A stretch of 36,375 bases of DNA from Candidatus Cloacimonadota bacterium (GTDB lineage: Bacteria; Cloacimonadota; Cloacimonadia; Cloacimonadales; Cloacimonadaceae). Each line of letters begins with the position of its first letter. Position 1 is the stretch's first letter. A program made the translations under genes and the position numbers. Positions 1,279 through 36,375 of the stretch are shown one piece after another. The stretch is taken from assembly GCA_030154085.1 (NCBI GenBank), contig JASKKR010000023.1, forward strand, positions 1 to 36,375, in the 5' to 3' direction. The notes beneath the pieces were generated by a model. It searched no databases, was not told the DNA's origin, and saw nothing but the letters and a program-made list of their open reading frames with translations.

Positions 1279-1287
1279 CTAATCCCC

Positions 1288-1665: not shown

Positions 1666-1707
1666 TGATATTCTCCTTATCTTTATTTCAGTGTATTAGG
1701 ATACATT

Positions 1708-6186: not shown

Positions 6187-6198
6187 CCTCTCTTCCCC

Positions 6199-9100
6199 CT
6201 ATTTGCCTTCCTCGTCTTTAACAAATTCGATGTCAAAGCCGAGAGATTTGAGTTCACTAACCAGAACATTAAACGATTCCGGAACTCCAGGAGGAGGCGG
6301 ATTCTCGCCGCGAGTGATGGCTTTGAAGGCATTATTTCTGCCATCCACATCATCACTTTTGATTGTGAGCATTTCTTCGAGCAGGTGTGCTGCACCATAG
6401 GCTTCCAATGCCCAAACCTCCATTTCTCCCAGACGCTGACCGCCATGTTGAGCTTTGCCACCAAGGGGCTGCTGAGTAATCAGGGAATATGGTCCCGTAG
6501 AGCGTGCATGCATCTTATCGGCTACAAGGTGATTTAGTTTCATCATGTAGATGATGCCCACAGTGACTCTTTCCTTGAATGGATAACCAGATTTACCGTC
6601 ATAGAGCACCATTTTACCGTCTTCATCATAGCCGGCAGCTCTGAGTTCGCTGCGAATATCTTCATTGCTGGCGCCATCAAATATCGGTGTCTCCACTTCA
6701 AAGCCCAAAGCTTTGGCAGCAAGACCCAAATGAGTCTCCATGATCTGTCCGATGTTCATACGAGATGGCACACCCAAGGGATTTAGCACGATATCGACAG
6801 TAGATCCATCTTCCATAAACGGCATATCCTCGATCGGCGCTATGATGGAGATCACACCTTTATTACCGTGCCGTCCTGCCATCTTGTCACCCACTTCGAT
6901 CTTACGTTTCTTAGCCACATAGACTTTTACCATCTTGCGTACGCCATATTGCAGCTCATCACCGTGTTTGATCCGTTCCCGAGATTTCTTGTAGATGTTT
7001 TCACTTTGTTCCAAAGACTGCTTGATCTTTAAAATTATATCTTGATAGATAATATTGTTGATAGCACTATCTTCTACCATCTCAACATCCAGATCGAGCT
7101 TTTTAAAGTTAATCCGTTTGATATCGTCTTTGGTAATCTTTTTGCCGGGAGCGATAAAATAGACGTTGGTTTTCTCATCCCAGATAGTCTTGGCAACCTG
7201 TCCTAAAAGAATGGCAGACAGCTTTTCTTCTTTAAATTCTTCCACTTTTTTGCGCCGCAATGCCAGATCGTCTTTTAGCTTTTTGATCTTTTCATCATAC
7301 TCATCTTCCAAGTCAGTGCCATCTTCCAGACGAGAAAATACTTTGACGTCGATGACCACACCCTCCATTCCGGGCTTTGCCTTTAGAGAGCTGTTAGTAA
7401 AATCGCCAGCACGATCCCCAAAGAGGGCGCGCATGAGGTTTTCTTCCGGAGAAGGATCTATCTCTACCGATTTTGGAGTAACCTTACCAACGATTATGTC
7501 GCCGGCATGGATCACTGATCCCACCCTGATGATGCCTGTCTTATCCAGATTGCGAAGGGCATGAGATGGTACATTGGGAATGTCATAAGCCAATTCTTCA
7601 CGTCCATTTTTGACGTTGCGAACTAGCACCTCCATCTCCTCTATATAGATGGAAGTGAGACTATCTTCACGAGCTACCTTTTCGCTGATGATGATAGCAT
7701 CCTCATAGTTGTATCCATACCAAGGCATGAATGCAACAAGCATGTTAGTACCAAGCGCAAGTCGATTATCTTCCACACAGGCTCCATCGGAGATCGGCTG
7801 ACCCTTACGTACTGTATCTCCGACCTTAACTATCGGTCGTTGATTTGCGCAGGTGTCTTGATTGGTGCGGACAAATTTCTTCAAATAAATGCGACTCTGG
7901 CTTCCTAAATATAGAGCTTCATCTTTTTCATTGAGCGCTTTGAGATCTATATATGCTGAAGTTACATTGACTACGGTGGCATCATAAGGTGCCACAGCCA
8001 CATCGGAAGTATCCTTTGTGGCAATCTTCTCCATGCCGGTACCTACAATAGGAGCTTGGGGATTGATCAAAGGTACGGCCTGGCGCTGCATATTCGAGCC
8101 CATCAAAGCACGATTTGCGTCATCATGCTCCAAGAAAGGAATCATCGCAGCAGATACAGAAACCATCTGCTGGGGGGCCACATCCATATACTGGATATCG
8201 GATGGACTGACTTGCACGAAATCACCCTTTTCTCGAGCAAAGACCAAATCGTCCGTGATTCTACGATCATCATCCAGATGCACATCGGATTGGGCTATGA
8301 TATACTGATCCTCCTCGGCTGCATCCATATAGACATATTCATCTGTCACTCTGCCATCAACCACTTTACGATAGGGGGTTTCCACAAAGCCAAGGCGATT
8401 GATGCGGCTATAAATAGCTGGTGAAACGATGAGTCCGATATTGGGCCCTTCCGGCGTCTCAATCGGGCAAACTCTGCCATAGTGAGACGAGTGGACATCG
8501 CGCACTTCAAAGCCTGCTCTATCGCGAGCTAATCCTCCGGGACCCAATGCGGAAAGTGCACGTTTGTGACGTAATCCTGCCAGAGGGTTGGTCTGCTCCA
8601 TAAACTGAGATAGCTGCCCGGTGAGGAAAAAGCCCTGCACAACATTAATCAAAGCGTTGCTATTCACAAGATCGTGTACAGTTATCTCGTCGATATTGGA
8701 AATAGCCATACGCTCCTGGATAATCCTGGAGACCATAGATAGTCCGGAATTGTACTGCTCTTGCAAAAGCTCACCCACCGTGCGCACCCGTCGGTTTGAA
8801 AGATTGTCGATATCATCCACATCTTGATCGCCATTGTAGGTATCAATCAGAGTCTTGAAAACATGGACAAAGTCTTCCACGGTGAGAGTCATAATGGATT
8901 CATCTACATCAATCCCTAAACGTCTATTGATCTTATATCGTCCCACTTCACCGAGATTGTATCGCTTTTCATTGAAGAACATGCGATCAACCAGTTGCTT
9001 AGCTGCTTCCAAGGGAGCATCTTCCCCGGGACGAATCAGCGAATATATCTTTTTAAGAGCATCTTCTTGATTTGTGGTCGGATCTTTGGCAATGGTGTTT

Positions 9101-9978
9101 TCGAGCACTTTGCGTGCTATCTCATTGTTTGAACCAATGAGCTCCACTTTTTTTATCTTGTGCTCGGAAAGGATTTTGATCAAAGTATCGGTAACTTGTT
9201 CGTTAGCAAATGCTATAGGCTCTTCAATACCGTCGACTGTGATGTCTTTGAAGAGATACCTATTTTTAGATTCGGAGACATTTAAGGTCTCGCTTTGATA
9301 GAAAGTTTTGCGAAGGTCAAGATTGGAAGAAATGCCAATTGCACGCAACAAAGTAGTTGCAGGTAATTTGCGGCGTTTATCGATATGGACGAACATTACA
9401 TCGTGAATATCTATATCAAATTCCAGCCAAGACCCATTGTAAGGTATAATTTTTGCGGAATACAGGGTTTTTCCTGATGGATGCTTTTCTGATGAGAAGA
9501 ATACACCGGGCGAACGCTGCAGTTGTGAGATTATCACACGCTCAGCGCCATTTACTATGAATGTACCCTGATCTGTGACCAATGGAATCTCGCCTAAAAA
9601 TACGTCTTGTTCCAAGACATCTTTGCTTTCACGTCCGGTCTCGGTATTCTCAAATACAGTGAGACGAAGCTTTGCTTTGAGGGGAGCTTGATAGGACAGA
9701 TTACGCTCACGACACTCATCTATGGTATATTTTTCTTGCAGGACATTATATTCGATGAATTCCAGCAAGAAATTGCCTTTATTGTCTTCAATCGGGAATA
9801 TGGACTCAAAGACAGCCTGCAGTCCTCTTTTTGCCCGTCGCTGAGGATGTACATCCTTCTGCAGAAAATCGTTAAACGAATCTACTTGCATGGCAAGAAG
9901 ATTGGGAATTTCTACTTCAGGAATACCCAGTTCGGCAAATCTTCCGGAGATACGGGAATAACTTTTGATCTTTCTCAA
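6199..9978 (-). CDS. rpoB: DNA-directed RNA polymerase subunit beta
   Basis: The 1259-residue beta subunit of RNA polymerase is complete. The rifampicin pocket region is clear: SQFMEQTNPLAGLRHKRALS followed by LGPGGL and then CPIETPEGPNIGL. The C-terminal GGKAQHGGQRLGEMEVWALEA clamp-contact motif is also present. The start appears to be TTG at 9978-9976, preceded by AAGGAG with a 7-base spacer, so the first residues are MRKIKSYSRI. It lies about 200 bases after rplL, with a strong hairpin in the gap, and 12 bases before rpoC. There is an inserted coiled-coil-like Lys/Glu-rich segment around residues 910-1010, as in many bacterial beta subunits. Confidence 0.98.
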   Translation of the reverse strand: MRKIKSYSRISGRFAELGIPEVEIPNLLAMQVDSFNDFLQKDVHPQRRAKRGLQAVFESIFPIEDNKGNFLLEFIEYNVLQEKYTIDECRERNLSYQAPLKAKLRLTVFENTETGRESKDVLEQDVFLGEIPLVTDQGTFIVNGAERVIISQLQRSPGVFFSSEKHPSGKTLYSAKIIPYNGSWLEFDIDIHDVMFVHIDKRRKLPATTLLRAIGISSNLDLRKTFYQSETLNVSESKNRYLFKDITVDGIEEPIAFANEQVTDTLIKILSEHKIKKVELIGSNNEIARKVLENTIAKDPTTNQEDALKKIYSLIRPGEDAPLEAAKQLVDRMFFNEKRYNLGEVGRYKINRRLGIDVDESIMTLTVEDFVHVFKTLIDTYNGDQDVDDIDNLSNRRVRTVGELLQEQYNSGLSMVSRIIQERMAISNIDEITVHDLVNSNALINVVQGFFLTGQLSQFMEQTNPLAGLRHKRALSALGPGGLARDRAGFEVRDVHSSHYGRVCPIETPEGPNIGLIVSPAIYSRINRLGFVETPYRKVVDGRVTDEYVYMDAAEEDQYIIAQSDVHLDDDRRITDDLVFAREKGDFVQVSPSDIQYMDVAPQQMVSVSAAMIPFLEHDDANRALMGSNMQRQAVPLINPQAPIVGTGMEKIATKDTSDVAVAPYDATVVNVTSAYIDLKALNEKDEALYLGSQSRIYLKKFVRTNQDTCANQRPIVKVGDTVRKGQPISDGACVEDNRLALGTNMLVAFMPWYGYNYEDAIIISEKVAREDSLTSIYIEEMEVLVRNVKNGREELAYDIPNVPSHALRNLDKTGIIRVGSVIHAGDIIVGKVTPKSVEIDPSPEENLMRALFGDRAGDFTNSSLKAKPGMEGVVIDVKVFSRLEDGTDLEDEYDEKIKKLKDDLALRRKKVEEFKEEKLSAILLGQVAKTIWDEKTNVYFIAPGKKITKDDIKRINFKKLDLDVEMVEDSAINNIIYQDIILKIKQSLEQSENIYKKSRERIKHGDELQYGVRKMVKVYVAKKRKIEVGDKMAGRHGNKGVISIIAPIEDMPFMEDGSTVDIVLNPLGVPSRMNIGQIMETHLGLAAKALGFEVETPIFDGASNEDIRSELRAAGYDEDGKMVLYDGKSGYPFKERVTVGIIYMMKLNHLVADKMHARSTGPYSLITQQPLGGKAQHGGQRLGEMEVWALEAYGAAHLLEEMLTIKSDDVDGRNNAFKAITRGENPPPPGVPESFNVLVSELKSLGFDIEFVKDEEGK

Positions 9979-10124
9979 AAGCTCACTCCTTTGTGCTGAT
10001 ATCGCACATTCGGTATGGGTTAGTACTTTGCATCTTATACGCTACGTTCAAGCGGCTCATAGTTTTGACTGACACATCAATTTGGGGATAGGTTGTTACT
10101 TTATGCTGTCTGCTCAGCAAATGA

Positions 10125-10158
10125 GTCCAAAAAAAGTCCAGGTGGACTTTTTTTGGAC
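10125..10158 (-). terminator. Perfect 15-bp hairpin between rplL and rpoB (likely attenuator)
   Basis: Bases 10125-10139 and 10144-10158 form a perfect 15-bp inverted repeat with a 4-base loop. The centre is GGAC/GTCC next to seven A and seven T residues, so in either direction it can act as an intrinsic terminator with a short GC stem followed by T7. It lies 24 bases after the rplL stop and 147 bases before rpoB. In E. coli an attenuator at this place sets the ratio of L7/L12 to RNA polymerase. The same role is inferred here. Confidence 0.75.
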
Positions 10159-10181
10159 ATATGTTTTGGCAAAAAAGCCGA

Positions 10182-10556
10182 TTACTTGAGTTCGACAGTT
10201 GCGCCAGCGTCTTCAAGTTTTTTCTTAGTTGCTTCGGCTTCTTCTTTACTAACTTTCTCAGCGACTGCTTTAGGAGCGCTGTCAACCAAATCTTTGGCTT
10301 CTTTGAGACCAAGGTTGGTGATTTCGCGTACAACTTTGATTACGTTGATCTTCTTGTCACCGGGGCTAGTAAGAATCACGTCAAATTCGCTCTGTTCTTC
10401 TTTCTCTTCAGCAGCGCTGGCAGGAGCGGCAAATGCGGCCACAGGAGCGGCGGCGGATACGCCAAATATTTCTTCCATTTCTGTGACGAGTTCAGAGAGC
10501 TCGAGAACGGTCATTTCTTTAATCAGGTCAATTACTTGTTGTTTTTTATCGGACAT
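10182..10556 (-). CDS. rplL: 50S ribosomal protein L7/L12
   Basis: The 124-residue stalk protein L7/L12 binds L10 as dimers and recruits translational GTPases. The N-terminal dimerisation helix is followed by an Ala-rich hinge (about residues 34-50, ending near [11 protein letters not shown]). The C-terminal domain contains [20 protein letters not shown] and ends [13 protein letters not shown]. It starts 33 bases after the rplJ stop and is followed by a strong hairpin before rpoB. Confidence 0.97.
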
Positions 10557-10589
10557 CTTTCCTCCATCGGATATATGAATAATTTTTTA

Positions 10590-11126
10590 TTAGCTAGCAT
10601 CAGCTTGTTTGTCTTTTATGGCATCTACCGCATAGATGAATTTACGGATAATACCCTGGCTGACCGCCATGAATCCAGTAAGCGGAGCAGTCATGCTGCC
10701 CAGCACTTTTGCCAAGAGTTCGTCGCGGGTTGGAAGGTTGGCTAGAGCAGCAAGTTCTGCCTGACCATATACGTGTCCTGCCACGTATCCGACTTTAAAG
10801 CTTGGAAAGTCGGCATCTTCCATTACTTCTTTACTAAACTTCGCTACTACGCGAGCGGGAGATACTTCATCATCCTGGCTAAAAGCCACTGCTGTGGGGC
10901 CATTGAGATATTTGTCCAGCTCTGTAATACCAAGTTCGTTAAGTGCAATCTTGAGCAGGGTGTTTTTCTCCACCAGGTATTCCACCTTATCAGCGCGAAA
11001 ACGGTTGCGCAGATCGTTTACCTGTTCGACATTGATTCCCTTGTAATCCACCAGTACGATCGCCTTTGCGCTACGTAGTCTTTCGACTAGGTTCTTAACT
11101 TTGTCTACTTTAAATTGTTGAACCAT
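10590..11126 (-). CDS. rplJ: 50S ribosomal protein L10
   Basis: This 178-residue protein is L10, the base of the ribosomal stalk that holds the L7/L12 dimers. Typical features are the N-terminal VDKVKNLVERLRSAKAIVLVDYKGI segment and the NLRNRFR-like DLRNRFRADKVEY region. The C-terminal helix (last 30 residues, ending FIYAVDAIKDKQADAS) binds L7/L12. It lies 14 bases after rplA and immediately before rplL, as in nearly all bacteria. Autogenous control by L10 is common in other bacteria, but the rplA-rplJ gap is too short to hold a full leader here. Confidence 0.95.
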   Translation of the reverse strand: MVQQFKVDKVKNLVERLRSAKAIVLVDYKGINVEQVNDLRNRFRADKVEYLVEKNTLLKIALNELGITELDKYLNGPTAVAFSQDDEVSPARVVAKFSKEVMEDADFPSFKVGYVAGHVYGQAELAALANLPTRDELLAKVLGSMTAPLTGFMAVSQGIIRKFIYAVDAIKDKQADAS

Positions 11127-11140
11127 TATTGTGCCTCCTC

Positions 11141-11845
11141 TTAGCTCTTGGCTGCCAAGGTTGCGCTTGCGACCTGTAGTTTAATGCCGGGTCCCATTGT
11201 GGTGCACAGAGTGATGCTCTTGATAAAGACGCCTTTGAGTGTAGCGGGGCGCTCTTTGAGAACCGCGGCAAGGATAGCCTTGATATTTTCTTTCAGCTTT
11301 TCTTCATCAAAACTGAGTTTACCAGCAGGGATATGTAGATTTGCAAACTTATCAACACGATAGGTCACTTTCCCACCTTTGGATTCTTCCACTGCTTTGG
11401 CTATGTCCATTGTAACTGTTCCCACTTTGGGATTTGGCATCAGTCCGCGAGGACCAAGAACTCGGCCTAATTTACCGATACGTCCCATAAGGTTTGGAGT
11501 GGCGATCACTACGTCAAAATCAAACCACCCACCGGTGATTTTTTCGACAAGATCGTCCACGCCTACGTAATCGGCTCCAGCATTTCTGGCTTCTTCTGCT
11601 TTGTCACCCTCAGCAAACACAAGCACTCGCATAGTCTTCCCCGTTCCATGGGGAAGTACCAATGAGTTTCTGATCTGCTGATCTGCTTTACGAGGATCGA
11701 CGCCAAGGTTGAAATGAACTTCGACTGTTTCGTCAAACTTCGAAGCCGGCAGGCTCTTGAGAAGTTTGATTCCTTCATCGAGGTCAAATCTCTTTTGGCG
11801 ATCAAACATCGCATAGGCGACTTTGTACCTTTTACTATGTTTCAT
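11141..11845 (-). CDS. rplA: 50S ribosomal protein L1
   Basis: The 234-residue L1 protein forms the mobile L1 stalk that releases E-site tRNA. Diagnostic blocks are the N-terminal [19 protein letters not shown] region, [21 protein letters not shown], the central [23 protein letters not shown] loop and the C-terminal [17 protein letters not shown]. It sits between rplK (39-base gap) and rplJ (14-base gap) in the standard KAJL order. The start is ATG with a GGAG-type ribosome site (AAAGGAGAGTCA) directly upstream. Confidence 0.97.
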
Positions 11846-11884
11846 TGACTCTCCTTTATGAATACTATCTCCTGCATCGTCACA

Positions 11885-12316
11885 TTAGCCGTCGATGGTG
11901 ACGCCCATGCTCCGTGCAGTACCTGCGATCATACTCATAGCGGATTCAAGGGAATGGCAATTCATATCCTGGATTTTGAGCTCTGCAATGCTCCTGAGTT
12001 GGGCTTGGTTCAGCTTTCCAACTTTTTCTTTATTTGGCGTAGAGGAACCTTTTGCCAAACCAACTTCTTTTTTGATGAGAACGCTGGCAGGAGGTGTTTT
12101 GATCTCAAAAGTGAAAGATTTATTCTTGGCCACATAGATCACTACCGGAAATACCATCCCGGGTTGATCTTGGGTCTTTTCATTAAACTGACGGCAAAAT
12201 TCTGGTATGTTCACGCCCACTTGTCCCAATGCAGGGCCCACGGGAGGTGCTGGAGTCGCTTTGCCAGCTGGCAATTGCAGCTTCAGAATTGAAACGATGT
12301 CTTTTGGTTTCGCCAT
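11885..12316 (-). CDS. rplK: 50S ribosomal protein L11
   Basis: The 143-residue L11 protein sits at the GTPase-associated centre with L10/L12 and is needed for the stringent response sensor RelA. The Pro-rich N-terminal domain ([20 protein letters not shown]) and the C-terminal rRNA-binding domain ([13 protein letters not shown] at the end) are both intact. It follows nusG by 26 bases and leads the rplKAJL block. Confidence 0.97.
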
Positions 12317-12342
12317 AATATTTATCCTCTTGTATCTATAAT

Positions 12343-12882
12343 CTATTTTTTTATCAGTTCTACCTGACTTCCATTAAGCTCTACGGGAGTGCGACGACCA
12401 AATACCGTCACATCTATCACCAGCTTATTACCGTCATCGGCAGTCTTTTGAACAATGCCCTCAAAATCCGTAAATGGACCGGATATTACCTTAACCAGGT
12501 CTCCCGGCATATACGAAAACTTTTTGAAATCCCGATCGGGGTCTGCTATGCCTAACAACCTGTCTACTTCTTCTTGAGGTAAGGGAATGGGGTCTTTGTG
12601 GTCTTTGGTCATACCCAAAAAACTGGTGACACCTGCCAAACTCAAAATATAGGTCTTCAACTCTGGTGTCAAATCTGCTTCCAAAATCACGTAACTGGTA
12701 AAAACTTTGCGCTCTCGCTCGATCTTCTTGCCATCGCGAATAATAAATGTTTTGCGAACGGGTACTAAGATCTGCCCGACAAGCTTCTCCATCTCAGTCC
12801 CTTCCAGACCCTTCTCGATGGCGCTCTTTACCTTATTCTCGAAACTCGAGTAGGTATGCAACACATACCACTTCATTGCCAC
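12343..12882 (-). CDS. nusG: Transcription termination/antitermination factor NusG
   Basis: The 179-residue protein has the NusG N-terminal domain ([17 protein letters not shown]) and a C-terminal KOW domain ([18 protein letters not shown], then [20 protein letters not shown]). NusG binds RNA polymerase beta' to reduce pausing and links it to Rho or to ribosomal S10. A GTG start at 12882 has AAGGGG about eight bases upstream. An ATG two codons later lies too far from that site, so GTG is preferred. It follows secE by 12 bases. Confidence 0.96.
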
Positions 12883-12894
12883 TGGTCTTTCCCC

Positions 12895-13080
12895 TTAAAA
12901 AAGCAGTTCCAAGATGCGTGAAAAGCCAAAGTCCACCACGGATAGAAAGATAGCTACAATCGCAGACATTACTATGACTACTATTGTACCTTCCTTAAGA
13001 TCTTCCCGGCTGGGCCAGCTTACTGATTTCATCTCGGAACGCACATCGCGAAAAAAGCGACTTACAGTTTGTAATTTCAT
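12895..13080 (-). CDS. secE: Preprotein translocase subunit SecE
   Basis: This 61-residue single-span SecE clamps the SecY channel in the inner membrane. It has the amphipathic helix with the conserved EMKSVSWPSREDL-type motif (residues about 16-28), followed by one membrane segment (about 32-55). It lies between tRNA-Trp and nusG, the usual location. The length matches the short SecE form found outside enterobacteria. Confidence 0.95.
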   Translation of the reverse strand: MKLQTVSRFFRDVRSEMKSVSWPSREDLKEGTIVVIVMSAIVAIFLSVVDFGFSRILELLF

Positions 13081-13128
13081 CTATTTCACCAAATACCTGT
13101 TTAGCTAAAAGCTACAAATTTAAGAATG

Positions 13129-13204
13129 TGGCAGGACAGGCAGGAATCGAACCCGCAACCCCCGGTTTTGGAGACCGGTGCTCTACCAGTTGAACTACTG
13201 TCCT
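13129..13204 (-). tRNA. tRNA-Trp (CCA anticodon)
   Basis: A 76-base tRNA folds with acceptor arms AGGACAG/CTGTCCT, the T-arm GGGTTCGATTC region and an anticodon stem ACCGG/CCGGG-type with loop CTCCAAA, giving anticodon CCA. The terminal CCA is encoded (13131-13129). It lies between rpmG and secE, a position conserved in many bacteria. Confidence 0.95.
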
Positions 13205-13225
13205 GCAACATATATTTCCAGCAGT

Positions 13226-13372
13226 TTAACGCTGCTTGTGGTTTGTGTGTTTCCGACAAGTGGGGCAATATTTCTTCAGCTCCATTCTGTTCGGATGCTT
13301 ACGTTTGTTGCGGGTCGTCGTATAATTACGATTCTTGCACTCTTCGCAAGCCAGGATAATTATATCTCTCAT
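13226..13372 (-). CDS. rpmG: 50S ribosomal protein L33
   Basis: A 48-residue protein is encoded from ATG at 13372 to TAA at 13226. It begins [17 protein letters not shown] and has two CxxC pairs (Cys 9/12 and 36/39) of the zinc-binding L33 type, with the typical [18 protein letters not shown] centre. L33 sits near the E site of the 50S subunit. The gene follows tuf by 20 bases and precedes tRNA-Trp, the canonical tuf-rpmG-trnW-secE order. The four-Cys form suggests a zinc-dependent version; a Cys-less paralogue might exist elsewhere. Confidence 0.93.
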
Positions 13373-13392
13373 CTTATGCTTCCAATTGGTTC

Positions 13393-14577
13393 TTATTCAA
13401 CTATGCTAGAAACAACGCCACTGCCGATTGTGTGACCACCTTCACGGATAGCAAAGCGTAGTCCCTGTTCCATAGCAATCGGAGTGATAAGTTCAGCAGT
13501 GATCTCCACATTATCACCAGGCATGACCATTTTGACTCCTTCTGGGAGTTGCAAAGAACCGGTAACGTCGGTGGTGCGGAAATAGAACTGAGGACGGTAA
13601 CCACTTTGGAAAGGTTTATGACGTCCGCCTTCTTCTTTGGTCAGGATGTAGGTCTGACCTACAAACTTGGTATGCGGAGTAATTGATTTCGGTTTGGCCA
13701 ATACCATACCGCGTTCCACATCTTTCTTAGCAAAGCCACGCAGCAGGATACCGATGTTGTCACCAGCTTGAGCTTCATCAAGAAGCTTACGGAACATTTC
13801 TACTCCAGTGCAAGTGGTTTCAACAGTCTCCCGGATACCTACACGCTCAACCTTATCTCCAACCTTGATCACACCGCGTTCCACACGACCGGTAGCAACT
13901 GTGCCCCGACCAGGGATAGAAAACACGTCTTCCACAGGCATCAGGAATGGTTTGTCAATTGCACGATCTGGAAGCGGAATGTAGCTGTCTATAGCATCAA
14001 GCAAAGCCTGAATCTGCACTTCTGCTTCTGGATCTCCATTTAAACACTTTAGGGCTGAACCACGAATCACCGGAACTTCGTCACCAGGAAATTCATATTT
14101 ATCGAGAAGTTCACGAACTTCCATTTCAACCAGATCAAGTAGTTCTTCGTCATCAACTAAATCGCATTTGTTCATGAATACCACGATTGCAGGAACACCA
14201 ACTTGACGAGCAAGCAGGATGTGTTCGCGAGTCTGAGGCATAGGTCCATCATAAGCACTGACCACCAAAATTGCTCCATCCATCTGAGCAGCACCGGTGA
14301 TCATGTTTTTGATGTAGTCAGCGTGACCGGGACAGTCAACGTGAGCATAGTGGCGCTTTTCAGTCTCATATTCAACGTGGGCGGTTGCGATGGTGATACC
14401 ACGAGCTTTTTCTTCGGGAGCGTTGTCAATACTATCAAAGGAACGGAATTTGGCTCCGCCCTTCTTTGCTAGATAAGAGGTAATCGCCGCGGTGAGCGTG
14501 GTCTTACCATGGTCTATGTGACCAATCGTACCGACATTTACGTGTGGCTTGGTACGTACGAATTTTTCTTTTGCCAT
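13393..14577 (-). CDS. tuf: Elongation factor Tu
   Basis: The 394-residue GTPase delivers aminoacyl-tRNA to the ribosome. The G motifs are all visible: GHIDHGKTT (about residues 19-27), the switch [15 protein letters not shown] block, DCPGHADY (about 80-87) and NKCD (about 135-138). Domains II and III follow in normal order, ending [15 protein letters not shown]. An AGGAGG site lies a few bases before the ATG. Four tRNA genes lie directly upstream on the same strand and rpmG directly downstream, so it belongs to a tRNA-tufB type operon. Confidence 0.98.
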
Positions 14578-26230: not shown

Positions 26231-27688
26231 CTATGTTCTTCTTAATCTACTGTTTAGGATGCCAAGCTCTTCGCGGTATTTGGCAATAATTCGCCGTGAA
26301 ATATTCATTCCTTCTGCTTTGAGCAGATCGACCAGTTCCTGATCCGAATGCGGTTTTTTCTTATCTTCGCTTTCAATTAGGCGAATAATGCAAGTCTTAG
26401 CTTGCTGACGTGAGATGCTCTCATAATGATCATCTCTGCCGGCAGTTGAGGAAAAGAAATCCTTCAGGGCAAAGATGCCATATGGGGTTTCGGCATACTT
26501 GTGCTTGACCACCCGACTGATGGTGGATTCGTTCTTTCCCACATCTTGGGCAATAGAGCTATAAGTCAGGGGTTGCAGAACTCCGCTGCCGTTGTAAAAG
26601 AAATCTTTCTGGTGTTTGATGATGGAAAGGGTGACTTGCTCCAGGGTGCGAGTACGCATGTAGATGGACTTGATCAGGAACTTTGCACTATTGATGCGTT
26701 CGCGTACGAAAGAGAGTGTCTCGCGGTCTAAATATCCTCGCCTAATCATATTGCGATAGTGCGAGCTGATCACGATATTGGGAGTGATGCTATCATTAAT
26801 GATCACTACATAGTCACCGTCGATAAGCTTGAGAGTCACATCCGGATACACATAGGAAGCGTTGATATTTAGGATCCTCAAGCCCGGTTTAGGATCCAGC
26901 TTTGAGATCTGGTCCCGATAGAAAATGATGGTATCTTCGGAAACATTGTAGTAGGAAGCTATCTTGCTATAGCGTCGATGGATAAGGTTCTCAAAATGTT
27001 CGCCAACCATGCCCATAATGATAGGATTTTCTTTTTGTTTTTCCGAAAGTTGTGCAACCAGGCACTCCGTGATATTGCGAGCTGTAATTCCTTTGGGGGT
27101 CAGTTGTAAGATAATCTCGTGTAATTCATCTGCTCGGCGGGGGGAGATCAGAAAACGCTGTGCCACATAGTAAAGATCATATCCTTGTGGCAAAAAGCCA
27201 TAGACGTCGCAACTATCCACCAATTCCATGACAAAGTCCATCTCATTTTCAGGGAGATTCAGGGGATAGAGCTGCTCCAGATATATATCCTTGCTATTAC
27301 TTTCATAGCGGATCATGCTTTCTCGGCCCTCTGTTTCGTTTTCGCCCAGATAAGCTTCATATGATGAGTGATATTCGTTCCACTGATCCAGTATATCAGT
27401 GAGCTGTTGAGCTTCTTTGCTCGCCGCGCTCAACTCATCGGGGCTATCCACATCATCCAGAGCAGTGCTGCTTTCCGCCTCATCTTGGGGCAGATCATCT
27501 TCCGGATGCTCATCATCGTCCTTTTCCTCCCGCAGCTCCAAAAGGGGATTATTCTGAAGCTCTTGGCGGATATAGCTTTCCAGCTCAAGGATTGGCAGAG
27601 AGAGCATCTTCAAAGATTGCAGCATTTTAGGCTTCAGCGCCAGCTCCTGCTTCTGCTTTAGTGAAATATGTTGATTCATCGTATTCAT
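26231..27688 (-). CDS. rpoN: RNA polymerase sigma-54 factor
   Basis: The 485-residue sigma-54 has all three regions: the Gln/Leu-rich N-terminal activator-response region (residues 5-50, with LKPKMLQSLKMLSLPILELESYI), an acidic linker (about 55-100) and the C-terminal DNA-binding domain. That domain includes a helix-turn-helix region (DVGKNESTISRVVKHKY) and the RpoN box ISRRIIAKYREELGI, which varies slightly from the common ARRTVAKYRE. Sigma-54 directs transcription from -24/-12 promoters with an enhancer-binding ATPase. The start overlaps the lptB stop by four bases. A near-consensus -24/-12 site occurs in this window before a pilin-like gene. Confidence 0.96.
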   Translation of the reverse strand: MNTMNQHISLKQKQELALKPKMLQSLKMLSLPILELESYIRQELQNNPLLELREEKDDDEHPEDDLPQDEAESSTALDDVDSPDELSAASKEAQQLTDILDQWNEYHSSYEAYLGENETEGRESMIRYESNSKDIYLEQLYPLNLPENEMDFVMELVDSCDVYGFLPQGYDLYYVAQRFLISPRRADELHEIILQLTPKGITARNITECLVAQLSEKQKENPIIMGMVGEHFENLIHRRYSKIASYYNVSEDTIIFYRDQISKLDPKPGLRILNINASYVYPDVTLKLIDGDYVVIINDSITPNIVISSHYRNMIRRGYLDRETLSFVRERINSAKFLIKSIYMRTRTLEQVTLSIIKHQKDFFYNGSGVLQPLTYSSIAQDVGKNESTISRVVKHKYAETPYGIFALKDFFSSTAGRDDHYESISRQQAKTCIIRLIESEDKKKPHSDQELVDLLKAEGMNISRRIIAKYREELGILNSRLRRT

Positions 27689-28434
27689 GATCTCTCTTCA
27701 AATGGACTCATAGTGAACCTTTCTCCCAGATACAGTCTCTTTGCGTTTTCATCATTGATCAGTTCTCTGGAAGAACCTGAAACGATAATTTTACCTTCGT
27801 AGATAATATAAGCACGGTTCACGATTTTCAAAGTCTCAATTACATTGTGGTCAGTGATCATCACACCGATGTTTTTTTGACGGAGTTTTTCGATGATATC
27901 TTGGATGTCGGATACGGCGATAGGATCGACGCCCGCAAAGGGTTCGTCCATAAAGATAAAGGTAGGATCTGTGACCAAAGCCCGGGTGATCTCGAGCTTG
28001 CGCCGTTCTCCTCCCGAGAGCGTATATGCTTTTTGTTTGGCAAGTTTGGTCAGATTCAGCTCGGATAGTGCCTCTTCCAGCTTGAGGCGACGCTCTTTGC
28101 GCGAAAGCTTCAGAGTTTCCAGGATCGCCATGATATTCTCTTCCACTGTGAGCTTAGCAAAGATAGAAGGAGCTTGTGCCAGATAGCCCATGCCCATGCG
28201 AGCGCGTTTATACATGGGTTTTTTCGTGATGTCTACCTCATTGAGGATCACTTTACCCCGATTTGGCTTTGCCAGACCTATGATCATATAAAAAGTGGTG
28301 GTCTTACCTGCACCATTGGGACCTAAAATGCCCACAACTTCACCCTGATTGATTTCCAAGCTGAGGTCATTTACCACAGTGCGTTTACCATATATTTTCA
28401 CGAGGTTTTGTGCTTCGATCTTATGTAATTCCAT
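27685..28434 (-). CDS. lptB: LPS export ABC transporter ATP-binding protein LptB
   Basis: The 249-residue ABC ATPase has Walker A GPNGAGKTT (38-46), signature LSGGERRKLE (about 139-148), Walker B FIFMDEPFAGVDP and the LptB-typical VMITDHNV. It powers extraction of LPS from the inner membrane through LptFG to LptC and LptA. The neighbours lptC and the OstA-like gene upstream and rpoN downstream match the common lptC-lptA-lptB-rpoN order. It overlaps rpoN by four bases. Confidence 0.95.
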   Translation of the reverse strand: MELHKIEAQNLVKIYGKRTVVNDLSLEINQGEVVGILGPNGAGKTTTFYMIIGLAKPNRGKVILNEVDITKKPMYKRARMGMGYLAQAPSIFAKLTVEENIMAILETLKLSRKERRLKLEEALSELNLTKLAKQKAYTLSGGERRKLEITRALVTDPTFIFMDEPFAGVDPIAVSDIQDIIEKLRQKNIGVMITDHNVIETLKIVNRAYIIYEGKIIVSGSSRELINDENAKRLYLGERFTMSPFEERS

Positions 28435-28466
28435 AGTTTACAATTTAAGCCTTATTATTTGCCATG

Positions 28467-29546
28467 TCAAGGTTGATTCTCAAAAAAATACTTGCCCCGG
28501 ATGCGTCCGCCCATGTCCATCAGTTTAAGCTGATTCTCTTCGCCGAATAAAGCTTTGAGCCTGTCGCCGGTAGCGCTATTGATAAAAAAGTCTTGCGAGC
28601 CATCTTGATCTTGTACATAATAGTAAGCAACATCCCGATCTGCACTAAAATCTTGCACTTTCCCATCTACAAAATTCAGCTCGATATTTGCTGCCTGCAC
28701 CCAGTTTTTCTTCTCCTCTTGCCCCTCAATAGCAAAATAAACCAAGCAGGAATCCACCAGAACCACCCGACTGAGCTTCTGCTGGTCAAGATAAAGATGA
28801 AATTCCCTTGCTGTAGCTGTCGCGAATTCATTATAAAAATTTGGCTGTCCTGTAAATACCGCCTGCTCTTCCTTGGCAAAATAAATCAAGAAATCGCTAT
28901 TTGCATGATAGTCTTGAGTACTTGTCTCAACGTTGAAGGTGGCTATCAGCTTGCGTTCATCCTCAAAATATTCCATCTTATCCGCACTAATATAGAGAGT
29001 ATCCTTCACCCCCGCACGGATGCGAGGTTCTTCGATGAGATAAGCATAGCCATTTGTCCTATCCCAAAATCCATAGCCACATTCCGCAAAACCATTTTCC
29101 CGTTCATCCCAAGCTCGAACATTTTGCCAAACCGTAATCGTATCTTTAGCCCTATTATAGATGCCATAATCCCCTTCCATCCAACGGCTATATCCTTGAG
29201 AGGTGCGCTGAGTTACCCGCACCTTGCCGCCCAGATTGAGCACTTGGGTATTGCGATAATACGCCAAAGAATCCGCCACCAGATGCAGTGAATCATTTTC
29301 CACCACTACATTGCCAGACAGCCGCGCAATCTTAGGTCCATCGAGAATCACCGCCCGGTCCGATCGGAACTCGATCTCCCCATAAAAGAAATTCACCTGT
29401 CCATTTAGCTGCAATACCTGTCCACTCTCGAGATTTACCATGTTTAGCCGATTAGCATTGATCAACCGAAATCTCCCCGGATCACTATTTTGCCCCCAAA
29501 GATAGACCAGGATGAAGATCAGACTACCAAGAAATATCTTCTTCAA
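28467..29546 (-). CDS. OstA/LptA-like LPS transport protein
   Basis: A 359-residue exported protein: a hydrophobic signal segment (residues 2-18) is followed by beta-jellyroll OstA-type repeats (for example LNGQVNFFYGEIEFRSDRAVIL and LSGNVVVENDSLHLVADSLAYY). It should form part of the periplasmic LPS bridge between LptC and the outer-membrane LptD. It is about twice the length of E. coli LptA, a size seen in the OstA-like proteins of FCB bacteria. The start is probably TTG 29546, overlapping the lptC end by 23 bases. It is not long enough to be LptD itself. Confidence 0.82.
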   Translation of the reverse strand: MKKIFLGSLIFILVYLWGQNSDPGRFRLINANRLNMVNLESGQVLQLNGQVNFFYGEIEFRSDRAVILDGPKIARLSGNVVVENDSLHLVADSLAYYRNTQVLNLGGKVRVTQRTSQGYSRWMEGDYGIYNRAKDTITVWQNVRAWDERENGFAECGYGFWDRTNGYAYLIEEPRIRAGVKDTLYISADKMEYFEDERKLIATFNVETSTQDYHANSDFLIYFAKEEQAVFTGQPNFYNEFATATAREFHLYLDQQKLSRVVLVDSCLVYFAIEGQEEKKNWVQAANIELNFVDGKVQDFSADRDVAYYYVQDQDGSQDFFINSATGDRLKALFGEENQLKLMDMGGRIRGKYFFENQP

Positions 29547-30096
29547 CTATATATCCTTCTGCCGAGACAGTTTCCATATCCACAAAGCTGAGACGGGAAT
29601 CGGTGCGCAAGTTGTATCCACGCAAGACATCTTCTCCACGCGTAAGCACAACATAGGTTGGCACGGTGATGTGATCCGTGGTGCGTTCCCAAACGAAACG
29701 CTGGGTCTTGATGGTGCCTTCTGGGCTTTCATAATAAGCATTACCATTGGCAAAGATGATATTTCGGGCATCGTCCACGATAGTAGTATCTGCTTTGATA
29801 ACTGAACTAAGCATGCCATCTTTGTCATATGAGGTCAGGGTCACCGTATAGCCATACATCATACGACGATCTGTAAAGCGTTCTATGCGTTCCGCTTCGA
29901 TGATGTAGTCCAAGCGGTTGTGCGTATATTCCAAAACCTGCACTCCCTGCGCATTTTCATCCGGGATTCCACTTTCTAAGACGCCCGTCTCCTGCTGTAG
30001 ATCATCCTTGGAGCAGCCGGCAGCTATGCCAAGCCCAAGTATCAGCACGATAAATCCTCCAAGTTTAATAACTCGATGCAATATCTTGCGAATCAT
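29524..30096 (-). CDS. lptC: LPS export protein LptC (lipoprotein form)
   Basis: A 190-residue protein with an N-terminal membrane segment ending in a lipobox (LGIAAGC, Cys 28), so it is probably a lipoprotein. It is followed by one LptC/OstA-like beta domain (VLEYTHNRLDYIIEAERIE, then repeats such as DTTIVDDARNIIFANGNAYYE). It would receive LPS from LptB2FG and hand it to the OstA-like protein encoded next. The ATG overlaps the kdsC stop by four bases. E. coli LptC keeps its anchor; a lipid anchor is the form seen in several Bacteroidota-like lineages. Confidence 0.85.
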   Translation of the reverse strand: MIRKILHRVIKLGGFIVLILGLGIAAGCSKDDLQQETGVLESGIPDENAQGVQVLEYTHNRLDYIIEAERIERFTDRRMMYGYTVTLTSYDKDGMLSSVIKADTTIVDDARNIIFANGNAYYESPEGTIKTQRFVWERTTDHITVPTYVVLTRGEDVLRGYNLRTDSRLSFVDMETVSAEGYIVEEDISW

Positions 30097-30650
30097 CCAC
30101 TCACGCTTTCCAGATAGCTATTGATAGCTTTCTCATAGAGCCCTTTTTTCGCGAGCACAAAGTCGATCAATTCGCGCACTGCCCCGCGTCCGCCGGAGTG
30201 ATTTGTGACCATATCCACTAACTTATGAATCTCGGGATGGGCATTTTGGGGAGCCACCGACAAGGCAGCCCGGTGCAAGCAGTGAACGTCGTTCCAGTCG
30301 TCACCCATATAGATGACATTGTCAAAGTCCAGCTCAAGCTCTTCCAAAAGCTGGGTCACACATGCCAATTTATTCGCCACGCCTTGATGCAGATGCTTGA
30401 TCTTCAGATCCCGACAGCGTTGCGCCAGGGCATCTGACTCTCTGCCACTGACTACTGCTATATCCAGATCTATCTGTGAAAGCAGCATTATTCCCATTCC
30501 ATCTGCCGCATCAAATTGTTTTAGATCCAGATTATCATTGCCATAAATAATGCGTCCGTCCGTAAGCACACCATCACAATCCAAGATCAACAGCTTGATC
30601 TGCTCCCAATTTACTGCAGGTTTGTTTGGTCGCACCAGATAATTTGTCAT
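30093..30650 (-). CDS. kdsC: 3-deoxy-D-manno-octulosonate 8-phosphate phosphatase KdsC
   Basis: A 185-residue HAD phosphatase that removes phosphate from KDO-8-phosphate. The nucleophile motif is LLILDCDGVLTDG (Asp 24 and 26). Motif II lies in IAVVSGRES, the Lys is in GVANKLACV and motif IV is VIYMGDDWNDV. No cap domain is present, as expected for tetrameric KdsC. Two adjacent ATGs (30653 and 30650) share the AAGGG site; the second has the better spacing. Either way the start overlaps the kdsA stop, and the 3' end overlaps lptC. Confidence 0.94.
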   Translation of the reverse strand: MTNYLVRPNKPAVNWEQIKLLILDCDGVLTDGRIIYGNDNLDLKQFDAADGMGIMLLSQIDLDIAVVSGRESDALAQRCRDLKIKHLHQGVANKLACVTQLLEELELDFDNVIYMGDDWNDVHCLHRAALSVAPQNAHPEIHKLVDMVTNHSGGRGAVRELIDFVLAKKGLYEKAINSYLESVSG

Positions 30651-31459
30651 CATTCCCTTCCGATGACTTGTGCGAGCTTTAGACAATCAGTGAGGATATC
30701 CTCTACCTCGTTCAGACTTAGCATCGTCGCCGCATCACTCAATGCTTTGGACGGATCGGGATGACACTCGATGAATAGGCCCCGTACCTTGCCAGTGGCA
30801 AGCGCAGCCCGCGCCATCAAAGGTGCAAATTCCGGATTCCCACCGGTGGATACCCCACTGGATGGTCGTTGCAATGAGTGCGTGAGGTCATAGATCACCG
30901 GATATCCCATCTGATTCAAAATCCCAAAACTGCGAAAATCTACCACCAGGTCGTGATAGCCAAAGGAAGTTCCCCGTTCCGTGACAAGCAAGTGCTGATT
31001 CCCTACCGCCTCTGCTTTTGCCGTGGCGGCGCGCATATCCTCTGGCGCCATAAACTGAGCTTTTTTGATATTCACGATCTTCCCGGTTGCCGCAGCGGCT
31101 CGAATGAGATCAGTCTGTCGGCTCAAAAATGCCGGAATCTGCAAAATATCGCAGATCTCGGCAGCCTCGGATACTTCACACACCTCGTGCACATCACTGA
31201 GTATACTAAGCCCCAGTTCTTGCTTGATCTCTGCCAAGATTCTCAGCCCGTCCTTGATCCCGGGACCGCTATAGGAGCTTCCGCTACTGCGATTTGCCTT
31301 TTTGTAGGACGATTTAAATACAAATGGCAGCTGCAATCTCTTGCTCAGATCCTGCAAAAACCGTGCAGTCTGCCACATTATTTCATCGCTCTCTACGACA
31401 CAGGGTCCGGCTATGAGAAAAAAGCTCGGCGCATTTTTCAAGCTGTCATATAGGGACAT
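30650..31459 (-). CDS. kdsA: 3-deoxy-8-phosphooctulonate synthase (KDO8P synthase)
   Basis: The 269-residue enzyme condenses arabinose-5-phosphate with PEP to give KDO-8-phosphate, the committed step of KDO synthesis. Family motifs include FLIAGPCVVES near the N-terminus, FKSSYKKANRSSGSSYSGPG, LSDVHE, the QIPAFLSRQTDL block and TERGTSFGYHDLVVD. It starts 8 bases after metK and its TGA overlaps kdsC. Both steps of KDO-8P metabolism are therefore encoded in tandem upstream of LPS transport genes. Confidence 0.96.
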   Translation of the reverse strand: MSLYDSLKNAPSFFLIAGPCVVESDEIMWQTARFLQDLSKRLQLPFVFKSSYKKANRSSGSSYSGPGIKDGLRILAEIKQELGLSILSDVHEVCEVSEAAEICDILQIPAFLSRQTDLIRAAAATGKIVNIKKAQFMAPEDMRAATAKAEAVGNQHLLVTERGTSFGYHDLVVDFRSFGILNQMGYPVIYDLTHSLQRPSSGVSTGGNPEFAPLMARAALATGKVRGLFIECHPDPSKALSDAATMLSLNEVEDILTDCLKLAQVIGRE

Positions 31460-32868: not shown

Positions 32869-32944
32869 TGGTACATCTTCGGGGATTCGAACCCCGGACC
32901 CACTGATTAAGAGTCAGTTGCTCTGCCAGCTGAGCTAAAGATGC
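32869..32944 (-). tRNA. tRNA-Lys (CUU anticodon)
   Basis: A 76-base tRNA with anticodon stem ACTGA/TCAGT and loop CTCTTAA, giving anticodon CTT. The T-loop GGTTCGAATCC is normal and CCA is encoded. The acceptor arms GCATCTT and AAGATGT pair with a G-U wobble at the first pair (G1:U72), which is unusual. It is a single-gene unit followed by a terminator 160 bases later. Confidence 0.92.
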
Positions 32945-33504: not shown

Positions 33505-33575
33505 TCTATGCTGTGTGCACCTTGAACTTGATTATAAGAGTGTAAAAAAACTAAACCAAAAAAAGGAGAATACCC

Positions 33576-34088
33576 ATGGGAACTCAACAAATTCTACTCA
33601 TTGTACTTAGTGTCATCATCGTCGGTGCCGCAATCGCCGTAGGTATCCAAATGTTTAATAACCAGGCATACAGTGCCAATAAGACTGCTATTGCCGCAGA
33701 CGCCCAAGGCTTCGCATCACAAATCGTTCAATATTACAAAACCCCGGAATCCCAAGGCGGCCTGGGAGGTGATTTTTACGTTGGTGGCAATGATAGTAAT
33801 AGTGGCACTCTCGTTACTGATGCAAATATTGGTTCCTTTATCGGTTGGGGTGGAGCGACAACAGACAATGATAATGGAGAATATGTCATAGGTCTTAAAG
33901 AAGACTCAGATGAAATATACGTTTACGGTCTTGGCAAAGAAGTTAGCGACAATAAAAAACCTGCAATAAAAACAACTATTACCTTCCCCGCTGGCACCAT
34001 TACTGCTAAAGTTGCTGATGTTGCCGCTGGTACTGCCCTAACAGTGACTGCCATAGAAGCTGCAATTAACCCCAGCACAGGCGGCTGA
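33576..34088 (+). CDS. Pilin-like protein, copy 1
   Basis: A 170-residue protein beginning MGTQQILLIVLSVIIVGAA, a hydrophobic helix (residues 4-27) like the N-terminus of type IV pilins and pseudopilins. A helical stretch with VQYYKTPESQGGLGG and a beta-rich C-terminal head follow. It lacks a basic leader and the usual mature Glu5. If prepilin peptidase cuts after Gly2, the leader is only two residues. A related copy lies at 34547-35032 and a broken one between. A PilC/GspF-like gene follows. It could be the main subunit of a pilus or pseudopilus; assembly is inferred. It is flanked by a sigma-54 type promoter and a strong terminator. Confidence 0.8.
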   Translation: MGTQQILLIVLSVIIVGAAIAVGIQMFNNQAYSANKTAIAADAQGFASQIVQYYKTPESQGGLGGDFYVGGNDSNSGTLVTDANIGSFIGWGGATTDNDNGEYVIGLKEDSDEIYVYGLGKEVSDNKKPAIKTTITFPAGTITAKVADVAAGTALTVTAIEAAINPSTGG

Positions 34089-34121
34089 TATAATCAAGCA
34101 CACAATAATATTGTGAGACTT

Positions 34122-34147
34122 AGGACCGAGAAATCGGTCCTTTTTTT
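34122..34147 (+). terminator. Rho-independent terminator after pilin copy 1
   Basis: AGGACCGA (34122-34129) and TCGGTCCT (34134-34141) form a perfect 8-bp stem with a GAAA loop, followed by a run of T to 34147. It lies 33 bases after the stop, so copy 1 is a monocistronic unit, as expected for a highly expressed pilin. Confidence 0.93.
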
Positions 34148-34200
34148 ATGCTCTTTTTGCCAAAGTGCTTAGTATATATCAAATCGCCTAAGGAGCCCCA

Positions 34201-34457
34201 ATGGTATTTCAGCAGATACTGCTTGTGATCATCGTGGTGCTCATTGTCGGCGGCGCGGTTGCGGTGGGCTTTGATATGTTTCTAAGGCAGGATCTGAGCG
34301 CAAATCGCTCTTCTTGCGGGGCGGATCTGCAGCTTTTTATGGCTCAGGTTCAGTAGATTACAAGATGCCCGAGCATCCGGGAGGATATTCCGGCAATCTG
34401 GCAAATGCTGAAGCGGCGGAGATGGGGTATTGCATCGGCAGGATCAGCTTTTCTTGA
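34201..34457 (+). pseudogene. Pilin-like pseudogene (frameshifted)
   Basis: An ATG at 34201 with AAGGAG upstream starts a frame related to the two intact pilin-like genes (MVFQQILLVIIVVLIVGGA, then FDMFLRQDLSANRSS). It stops at TAG 34354 after 51 codons. Reading one frame over from 34359 restores the family sequence YKMPEHPGG and a segment like the start of the head (LANAEAAEMGYCIGR), ending at TGA 34457. A net loss of one base around 34350-34358 explains this. The head domain is also mostly missing, so the copy is inactive. Confidence 0.85.
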
Positions 34458-34475
34458 TACCAAAATAAATACCGC

Positions 34476-34504
34476 TTGACTATTTTCTATTTTAAGCTTA
34501 TAAT
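34476..34504 (+). promoter_or_regulatory. Sigma-70 type promoter of pilin copy 3
   Basis: TTGACT (34476-34481) and TATAAT (34499-34504) are separated by exactly 17 bases, an almost perfect housekeeping promoter. Transcription would start near 34511, giving a leader of about 36 bases with GAAAGGGGG before the ATG at 34547. This contrasts with the sigma-54 type site before copy 1. Confidence 0.85.
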
Positions 34505-34546
34505 ATATACATCTGTCATATAAAATAATAGAAAGGGGGTCCCATT

Positions 34547-35032
34547 ATGGGAACGCAACAGATTCTGCTCATAGTATTGAGTGTAATTATCGTTGGAGCG
34601 GCAGTGGCAGTAGGCATAGACATGTTCAATAGACAAGATTTTACCAGCAATAGGAGTTCAGCAGCCTCGGATGTGCAGATCTTCTTGACGCAGGTCTTGC
34701 AATATTACAAAATGCCCGAATCTTTAGGCGGTTTGGGCAATGATCTGGACAATCTGGATGATGCCGAGCAATTGGCGAAGTACATCGGCTGGGGCGATGA
34801 TCATCCCATGAAAAATGACAATGCGCACTATCTGGTGGAATTGCCAAATAACGATGAACAGGTAGTCTATATCAAAGCCATCGGCCGCTCTTCTTTGGCA
34901 GGGAAACGGCCGGTTGTCCACGGCAGAATTCGTTTCCCGGATGGTGAGATCCGCTCCAGAGTGGGCGAGATTGAGCTGACGACGGATGTGACTGAGACGG
35001 ATTTTAATTTTGATCTGTGGGAAACGGAGTAA
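34547..35032 (+). CDS. Pilin-like protein, copy 3
   Basis: A 161-residue paralogue of the protein at 33576. The first 28 residues differ at only two positions (Val for Ile 20, Asp for Gln 25). The helix continues with VLQYYKMPESLGGLGN and the head keeps the order IGWGDD, YLVELP, VVYIKAIG, RIRFPDGEIRSRVGEIEL. The C-terminal tail is acidic (ETDFNFDLWETE) and unlike copy 1. As in copy 1 there is no basic leader and no Glu5. Its own promoter suggests expression under different conditions from copy 1, or a minor-pilin role. No terminator directly follows; a three-hairpin element starts about 90 bases on. Confidence 0.8.
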   Translation: MGTQQILLIVLSVIIVGAAVAVGIDMFNRQDFTSNRSSAASDVQIFLTQVLQYYKMPESLGGLGNDLDNLDDAEQLAKYIGWGDDHPMKNDNAHYLVELPNNDEQVVYIKAIGRSSLAGKRPVVHGRIRFPDGEIRSRVGEIELTTDVTETDFNFDLWETE

Positions 35033-35400: not shown

Positions 35401-36375
35401 ATGACCAAAGAGTATCGCTTTAAGGGTGTGAGTCCTGAAGGCAAGCTGATCCAAGGCACCTTCATGGCGGATAGTCCCAAGGCTGCCAAGGAGCAAATGG
35501 CTAAGGTTGAGCTGCGTTACAAGCTCAAAGTTCAGGCTTTTGAGAAGAAGCGAGATTGGCTCTACAAGGTCTTCATTGAGGGCAAGAAGCCGGTCAGTGG
35601 GCGTCAATCTGCCTATTCCAAAGAAGAGGTGGCAAATGCTCTAAGGCGAATGGGCTATACGAAGTTCAATATATCCCCTGTACTTTTTGACATTCCGTCC
35701 AGGCCATCTTTGCCGGACATCATGATGTTTATCAAGCTCTCTGCCACAATGTTGCGCGACAAGATGAGCTTTGGCAAGATCCTGGAGATGCTTGCTGAAG
35801 AGCAGCCAAATCGCGGTTTCAGAGAAGCTTTGCAGCAGATTGAGAGTCAGCTCAAGGCGGGCGCGGAGGGACGTGAAGTCTTCATGCGCTATCAGCATAT
35901 CTTCGGCAAGTTTCCCGCCTACATGCTGGGGCTTGCCACCCGAAGCGGTAATATGGCGGAGGTCTTTGATGCCACCGCGAAATTCATCGAGCGCGATATG
36001 GAGATCAAGAAAAACGTCAAGAAAGCCTTGATCTCTCCGATGTTTGCACTTTTGGCAACCGTCGCCGCGGTGATCTACTATATAGTGGCTATCTTCCCGG
36101 CCACCGCTCAGCTTTTTTTGAAGTATGACATGCCGTTGCCTCCGCTTACGCAGAGTACCTTGGCGGCGAGTGATTGGCTCGGAGCATATTGGTGGGCTCT
36201 GCTTTTGGGGGTAGCTATCCCCATGTTTATCATTTGGCGTTGGTGGAGCACACCCAAGGGCAAGATCTGGCGGGACAAGCGCATTGTCAAGATACCCATA
36301 GTGGGGCATTTGATCCACAAATCCTCGATAGAGATTTATTTTCGTGTATTTGGCACTATTTATGGCGGTTCTGGG
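35401..36375 (+). CDS. PilC/GspF-like inner-membrane platform protein (partial, runs off the window)
   Basis: An open frame from ATG 35401 (GGGAG seven bases upstream) continues without a stop to the window end, 325 codons. The T2SSF domain begins near residue 105 (LSATMLRDKMSFGKILEML). It includes the typical LATRSGNMAEVF block and two membrane segments (about 209-240 and 259-283). A second T2SSF half starts near residue 305 (IEIYFRVFGTIYGG). The protein anchors the assembly ATPase and pilin polymerisation in type II secretion and type IV pili. The N-terminus has two short units of the kind normally present once (residues 3-50 and 60-95). Lying behind the pilin-like genes, it supports a pilus or pseudopilus role for them. 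Confidence 0.9.
   Translation, partial: MTKEYRFKGVSPEGKLIQGTFMADSPKAAKEQMAKVELRYKLKVQAFEKKRDWLYKVFIEGKKPVSGRQSAYSKEEVANALRRMGYTKFNISPVLFDIPSRPSLPDIMMFIKLSATMLRDKMSFGKILEMLAEEQPNRGFREALQQIESQLKAGAEGREVFMRYQHIFGKFPAYMLGLATRSGNMAEVFDATAKFIERDMEIKKNVKKALISPMFALLATVAAVIYYIVAIFPATAQLFLKYDMPLPPLTQSTLAASDWLGAYWWALLLGVAIPMFIIWRWWSTPKGKIWRDKRIVKIPIVGHLIHKSSIEIYFRVFGTIYGGSG

Follow-up and report, generated by a model that had tools for sequence, protein, structure and literature searches.

In reviews of the type IV filaments, the removal of a leader from the pilin by a dedicated peptidase is given as the defining step of every such system (PMC4471445, PMC10191384). The loci of the MSHA (MSH) pili contain no prepilin peptidase gene, but they always occur in genomes in which a peptidase belongs to another system (PMC6668835); the divergent T2SS/T4P-like cluster of Cytophaga hutchinsonii (Bacteroidota), an FCB relative, encodes its own Peptidase_A24, CHU_3197 (PMC5553014), and the Synechocystis study of pilD suppressors dealt with mutants of a canonical system. 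For the genome of Melioribacter roseus, pilT, pilQ, pilB and pilC were reported, and neither pilA nor pilD was found (PMC3534657). No description of leaderless pilins, or of type IV pili free of a peptidase, was found in the literature searched, subscription journals and preprints lying outside it. The locus analysed here comes from a Candidatus Cloacimonadota genome, and two of its proteins very probably serve as the major subunits in a full type IV filament machine, one that works with leaderless pilins and without a PilD step.

The probable leaderless pilin locus and its operon

The window, the whole stretch of 36,375 nucleotides that was analysed, corresponds to contig C15 in a genome of 1.95 Mb (99.75% complete), and it carries two intact tandem pilin genes on the forward strand. 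Leaderless major pilin 1 (33576–34088) has 170 aa, begins MGTQQILLIVLSVIIVGAAIAVGIQMF and is preceded by the Shine–Dalgarno (SD)-like AAGGAG at 33563–33568; leaderless major pilin 2 (34547–35032) has 161 aa and the SD-like AAAGGGGG at 34532–34539. Both proteins are 43% identical, and their first 19 residues, MGTQQILLIVLSVIIVGAA, are the same. In-frame stops lie seven (pilin 1) and five (pilin 2) codons upstream of M1, and the interval between the stop and M1 is without any start codon in both genes, which leaves neither gene able to encode a leader. If cleavage followed Gly2, position 5 would be Leu (Leu7) instead of Glu, and counted from Met1 it is Gln. A broken third copy is found on the same strand at 34201–34371, with a remnant to about 34458; it has a premature TAG and has lost its frame, with 55% identity over 55 residues, and the position of this pseudogene between the intact copies suggests a tandem duplication followed by decay. 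Further downstream, the gene for the inner-membrane platform, pilC/gspF (35401–36375, forward strand; PF00482, T2SSF, E=1.2e-19), is cut by the contig end. The initial annotation had described two ORFs with a common N-terminus, no leader and Leu at the position of Glu5 after a cut behind Gly2, followed by a PilC/GspF-like gene, and all of these features proved to be real; the broken third copy had escaped it.

The end of the window inside pilC is an assembly break and no biological end, as positions 36277–36375 are identical to positions 1–99 of contig C30 (L017), an exact overlap of 99 bp within the gene. On C30, the end of pilC is followed by the genes for PilB, three small membrane proteins (smA, smB and smLamG), a histidine-kinase-like protein and an adjoining response regulator that carries a cNMP domain, PilT, a PilM/PilN-like protein of 711 aa that has a PilN-like region, a PilO-like protein and a secretin whose nearest family is PilQ. 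PilB, the next gene after pilC (T2SSE, E=4e-96; best NCBIfam match type IV-A PilB, 388 bits), is the assembly ATPase that had been anticipated beyond position 36375, and PilT reaches 319.8 bits against a pilT_fam cut-off of 319.1. An assembly ATPase, a PilC-type platform and a secretin, the components by which membership among the type IV filament machines was judged, are all present at the locus. In the same genome, C37 carries the genes of a distinct, canonical pilus system (KGFTLIE pilins with PilB, C, M, N, O, Q and T), and a single prepilin peptidase gene lies on C36.

Elsewhere in the window, a tRNA-Lys (CTT) gene lies just ahead of the pilin locus (32869–32944, reverse strand), and the reverse strand also carries, at 808–14577, the usual cluster of S7, S12, RNA polymerase beta/beta', L7/L12, L10, L1, L11, NusG and EF-Tu genes with tRNAs. 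The LptB-like ABC protein, LptA/LptC-like, KdsC-like and KdsA-like genes at 27685–31459 (reverse strand), for lipopolysaccharide (Kdo) and its export, are consistent with a diderm.

Start sites and conservation of the N-terminus

The homologues were collected and counted with the motif [MVIL]G.Q..L, by which 9 of 192 rows were set aside; the 183 distinct homologues for which the upstream stop could be determined all begin at the same Met, more than chance would give. In 170 of the 183, no ATG, GTG or TTG separates this Met from the in-frame stop upstream of it, and a leader is therefore not encodable there; the stop lies at most three codons from M1 in 56 and at most five codons in 100, and an SD-like motif accompanies M1 in 163. 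The hydrophilic leader by which type IV pilins (class III signal peptide proteins) are defined, of about 6–26 residues and ending in Gly or Ala (PMC4471445, PMC10191384), is accordingly missing from these 170, whereas the hydrophobic mature start of about 21 residues that marks type IV pilins has its counterpart in residues 6–24, hydrophobic throughout the alignment. Glu5, frequent though not universal among type IV pilins, is absent from the major subunit, where Gln4-Gln5 (counted from Met1) is near-invariant. The invariance of G2, Q4 and L7 is partly built in by the motif, and that of Q5, L8, G17, G23 and F27 is not. The near-invariant N-terminal residues are encoded by many synonymous codons, position 7 using all six Leu codons, which indicates that conservation acts on the protein and not on the DNA, and the helix is conserved far above the head. 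The net charge of residues 2–6 is zero in 183 of 184 homologues, so the positive-inside rule provides no explanation for an N-in orientation.

In the Pfam and NCBIfam scans, no family covers these pilins, no member passes PF07963 or any other pilin model, and a single weak PilX_N match (E 0.049) was obtained among the family members; the search of PDB sequences gave weak matches only, to a geopilin (9egp, E 0.019) and to PilE1. The hhalign comparison with the canonical pilins of the phylum was likewise weak (probability 3%), with a register offset by one residue, and because of this ambiguity no claim is made as to whether Met1 or Gly2 corresponds to position +1.

Predicted structures and putative minor pilins

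AlphaFold2 was run on pilin 2, with a 55-sequence alignment, and on smA. The model of pilin 2 combines a helix (residues 3–55) with four strands and a short second helix (pLDDT 92.2, pTM 0.81), and that of smA a helix (3–59) with four strands (pLDDT 88.8, pTM 0.70); the predicted architecture of both proteins is pilin-like. Foldseek returned no significant match for either model in the PDB, nor in the viral library; below significance, the closest pilin to pilin 2 was 7o5y_A (E 0.88, TM 0.42/0.51), and the top-ranked entry for smA was the Thermus competence pilin TT_C0855 (E 0.26). The long N-terminal helix and beta-sheet head of the pilin lollipop fold, on which the structural check of the initial annotation turned, are seen in outline in the predictions, with no significant match to a solved pilin.

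The small membrane proteins encoded after PilB, smA (140 aa), smB (193 aa) and smLamG (419 aa), all start without a leader across the Cloacimonadota, with less certainty for smB, for which 25 of 39 have no alternative upstream start, and they may be inferred to be minor pilins that are leaderless too. The N-terminus of smA, MNMMEM, has no Gly at −1 and carries Glu at residue 5 from Met1, a residue that switches from E/D to Q among relatives within one family; smLamG shows a weak LamG match and no early acidic residue. Tip-capping minor pilins without an early acidic residue have been reported (PMC10191384), and a role of smLamG as tip cap and adhesin would fit. A set of three minor-pilin-like genes of rising length, the largest without an early acidic residue, is also a point of likeness to the T2SS pseudopilins GspG/I/J/K, and the order smA-smB-smLamG appears by analogy to resemble GspI-J-K, although here the proteins are leaderless and PilT is in the operon. 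No Pfam T2SSG, I, J or K match was found among the three genes, and smA has just a weak GspK-like NCBIfam match (E 0.017).

Distribution of the family and phylogeny of PilB

The first scan of the collection gave 67 loci, mostly from Candidatus Cloacimonadota, with records also from Neomarinimicrobiota, Ignavibacteria and Latescibacterota. In profile searches, 87 of the 125 genomes from the phylum of the window had the leaderless pilin family, as had 211 of the 391 from the class to which the Ignavibacteria record L083 belongs, a class which we take to be part of FCB. Among 65 family-bearing loci of the first scan, from Cloacimonadota and others and many of them on short contigs, a nearby gene on the same strand encoded PilC in 51, PilB in 46 and PilT in 19, and in the Ignavibacteria-containing class, regions of 20 kb contained PilC, PilB and PilT together in 16 of 19. 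The tandem pilin copies sit directly upstream of pilC, a genome may have up to 15 of them, and no pilin-like gene beyond the leaderless set was recognised in these operons. One Cloacimonadota genome, G119 (L117, L135 and L136), has its 15 leaderless pilin genes distributed over several arrays; it is 95% complete with 8% contamination, and neither PilD nor a PF07963 pilin was detected in it.

The PilB proteins encoded in the leaderless operons fall into a single clade (SH-like support 1.0, 63 tips), with members from the Ignavibacteria-containing class as well as from Cloacimonadota, Latescibacterota and Neomarinimicrobiota, whereas the canonical PilB of the window genome falls outside it and groups with the peptidase-adjacent PilBs of the Ignavibacteria-containing class. 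The homologue N-termini, the AlphaFold2 models, the conserved operons and the distribution all support the proposal of the initial annotation that these proteins define an uncharacterised pilin class with neither a normal leader nor Glu5, spread across FCB bacteria and associated with a PilC-type machine.

Occurrence of the prepilin peptidase

The initial annotation had also made its proposal depend on a prepilin peptidase in the genome, and such a gene does exist; nevertheless, in the Cloacimonadota the peptidase is nearly universal, in single copy, and accompanies the canonical system (102 of 125), as it does in the window genome, so that its presence is uninformative on the leaderless pilins there and related genomes decide the matter. 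In the Ignavibacteria-containing class, PF01478 is found in 16 of 391 genomes, all of which carry leaderless pilins, and the A24 prepilin peptidase was undetected in 195 of the 211 family-bearing genomes by a search that was positive for 12 of 14 control genomes, archaea and Caulobacter included. PF07963 is present in 24 of the 391, and 188 genomes, counted from those listed, have leaderless pilins without both PF01478 and PF07963. Several of the genomes without a peptidase match consist of one contig of full or nearly full length (G281, 3.30 Mb; G308, 3.86 Mb; G311, 4.21 Mb; G160, 5.24 Mb). The first of them, a closed genome of 3,300,414 bp (C1), has exactly the same length as the published chromosome of Melioribacter roseus (PMC3534657), and its leaderless pilins (681272–681655 and 681735–682115, reverse strand) adjoin pilC, pilB and pilT. 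Four genomes from other phyla, the first to be reached there and listed without a completeness value, likewise gave no peptidase match.

Peptidase loss within the Cloacimonadota, where the family occurs without PilD in G069, G108, G119 and G124, was considered as proof and rejected, its frequency being about that of incomplete genomes. In the genome of record L083 (G125), three PF07963 pilin matches lie on one contig (C237, 2905–3858) and no peptidase match was found in the genome, possibly through contamination or a missing contig.

Processing, topology and a proposed mechanism

Among the counted homologues Gly2 never varies, in part because of the motif, and Met-Gly might itself be a two-residue leader, cut after Gly2 by the PilD that the window genome encodes to give a mature TQQILL... 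without Glu5, a residue dispensable for processing (PMC4471445). The Cloacimonadota genomes G111, G112, G114 and G115 (L214, L211, L212 and L213, respectively) have a stand-alone peptidase and no PF07963 pilin match, and there the peptidase could act on the leaderless pilins. However, the peptidase is undetected in most family-bearing genomes of the Ignavibacteria-containing class, the N-terminus of smA does not provide the Gly, the mature helix of smLamG would begin with a charged Arg, positive charge is absent, and the shortest leader reported to be cleaved by such a peptidase has 3–4 residues (PMC4187195), all of which makes this cut very improbable. Between a two-residue leader and no cleavage, the alternatives of the initial annotation, the evidence therefore favours the latter and disfavours the former. 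Even less probable is the removal of a leader by an unrelated protease, or a true start farther upstream by way of a non-AUG start or a frameshift: the near stops, the missing start codons and the SD-like motifs at M1 leave nothing to remove, although processing is regarded as universal in the type IV filaments (PMC4471445, PMC10191384) and a non-homologous replacement of the enzyme is possible.

Tandem copies directly upstream of pilC, as many as 15 in one genome, a pilin-like AlphaFold2 architecture, a helix conserved far above the head, and operons with a LamG-like minor partner and no other recognised pilin-like gene argue for filament subunits and against single-pass membrane accessory proteins, or a reversed topology with a cytoplasmic C-terminal domain, in spite of the uncharged N-terminus and the lack of a significant Foldseek match, which would suit either; such roles are considered highly unlikely.

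If both proteins are leaderless major pilins, translation would start at, or one residue before, the +1 position of other pilins. Methionine aminopeptidase is expected to take Met off before Gly2, leaving a Gly N-terminus. The hydrophobic N-terminal segment would act as an uncleaved signal anchor, with the N-terminus cytoplasmic and the head outside, an insertion that is required because the head must reach the periplasm; given the absent leader and the enzyme's absence in relatives, neither a prepilin peptidase step nor N-methylation would take place. Judging from the families to which they belong, PilB and PilC of the operon would build the fibre from the subunits and PilT may retract it, the PilM/N-O-like proteins would align it and the secretin would let it through the outer membrane. 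Gln4-Gln5 of the major subunit probably takes over the docking role of Glu5, and the fibre would likely serve in adhesion to polymers or cells or in retraction on them.

Comparison with known systems and significance

The locus resembles the type IVa pilus in PilB, PilT, PilC, the PilQ-nearest secretin and the PilN-like region, but its pilins have neither leader nor Glu5, PilD is absent in most machine-bearing genomes of one class, the PilM and PilN parts appear to be fused, and its PilB belongs to a clade apart from the canonical PilB of the same genome. The hydrophobic helix resembles, weakly at the profile level, that of the Geobacter geopilin-domain pilin (9egp). Unlike the leaderless proteins described here, which have their own beta-sheet head, Geobacter PilA undergoes cleavage and possesses Glu5. 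Like the MSH loci, those described here are without a prepilin peptidase gene, but most family genomes of one class have no peptidase from any other system either, and the C. hutchinsonii cluster is set apart by a peptidase of its own. In summary, the family fails the textbook definition of a pilin on the leader and, in the major subunit, on Glu5, and would be type IV pilus-like by its machinery and predicted architecture. These data point to what is probably a distinct and widespread class of type IV filament in FCB bacteria, with major and minor pilins synthesised at their mature length, the peptidase dispensed with genome-wide and Gln standing in for Glu5 in the major subunit.

Annotation tools that demand a leader or PilD will overlook this system. 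The leaderless pilins offer an answer to the puzzle of Melioribacter roseus, with pilB, pilC, pilT and pilQ and no recognised pilA or pilD (PMC3534657), and since this species is cultured, the prediction is testable. If true, the leader would be a dispensable route to the membrane, the machine in hundreds of species omitting its cleavage, which would raise the question of how an N-terminus without charge enters the membrane and acquires its orientation, and would put to the test the purpose of Glu5 and of N-methylation.
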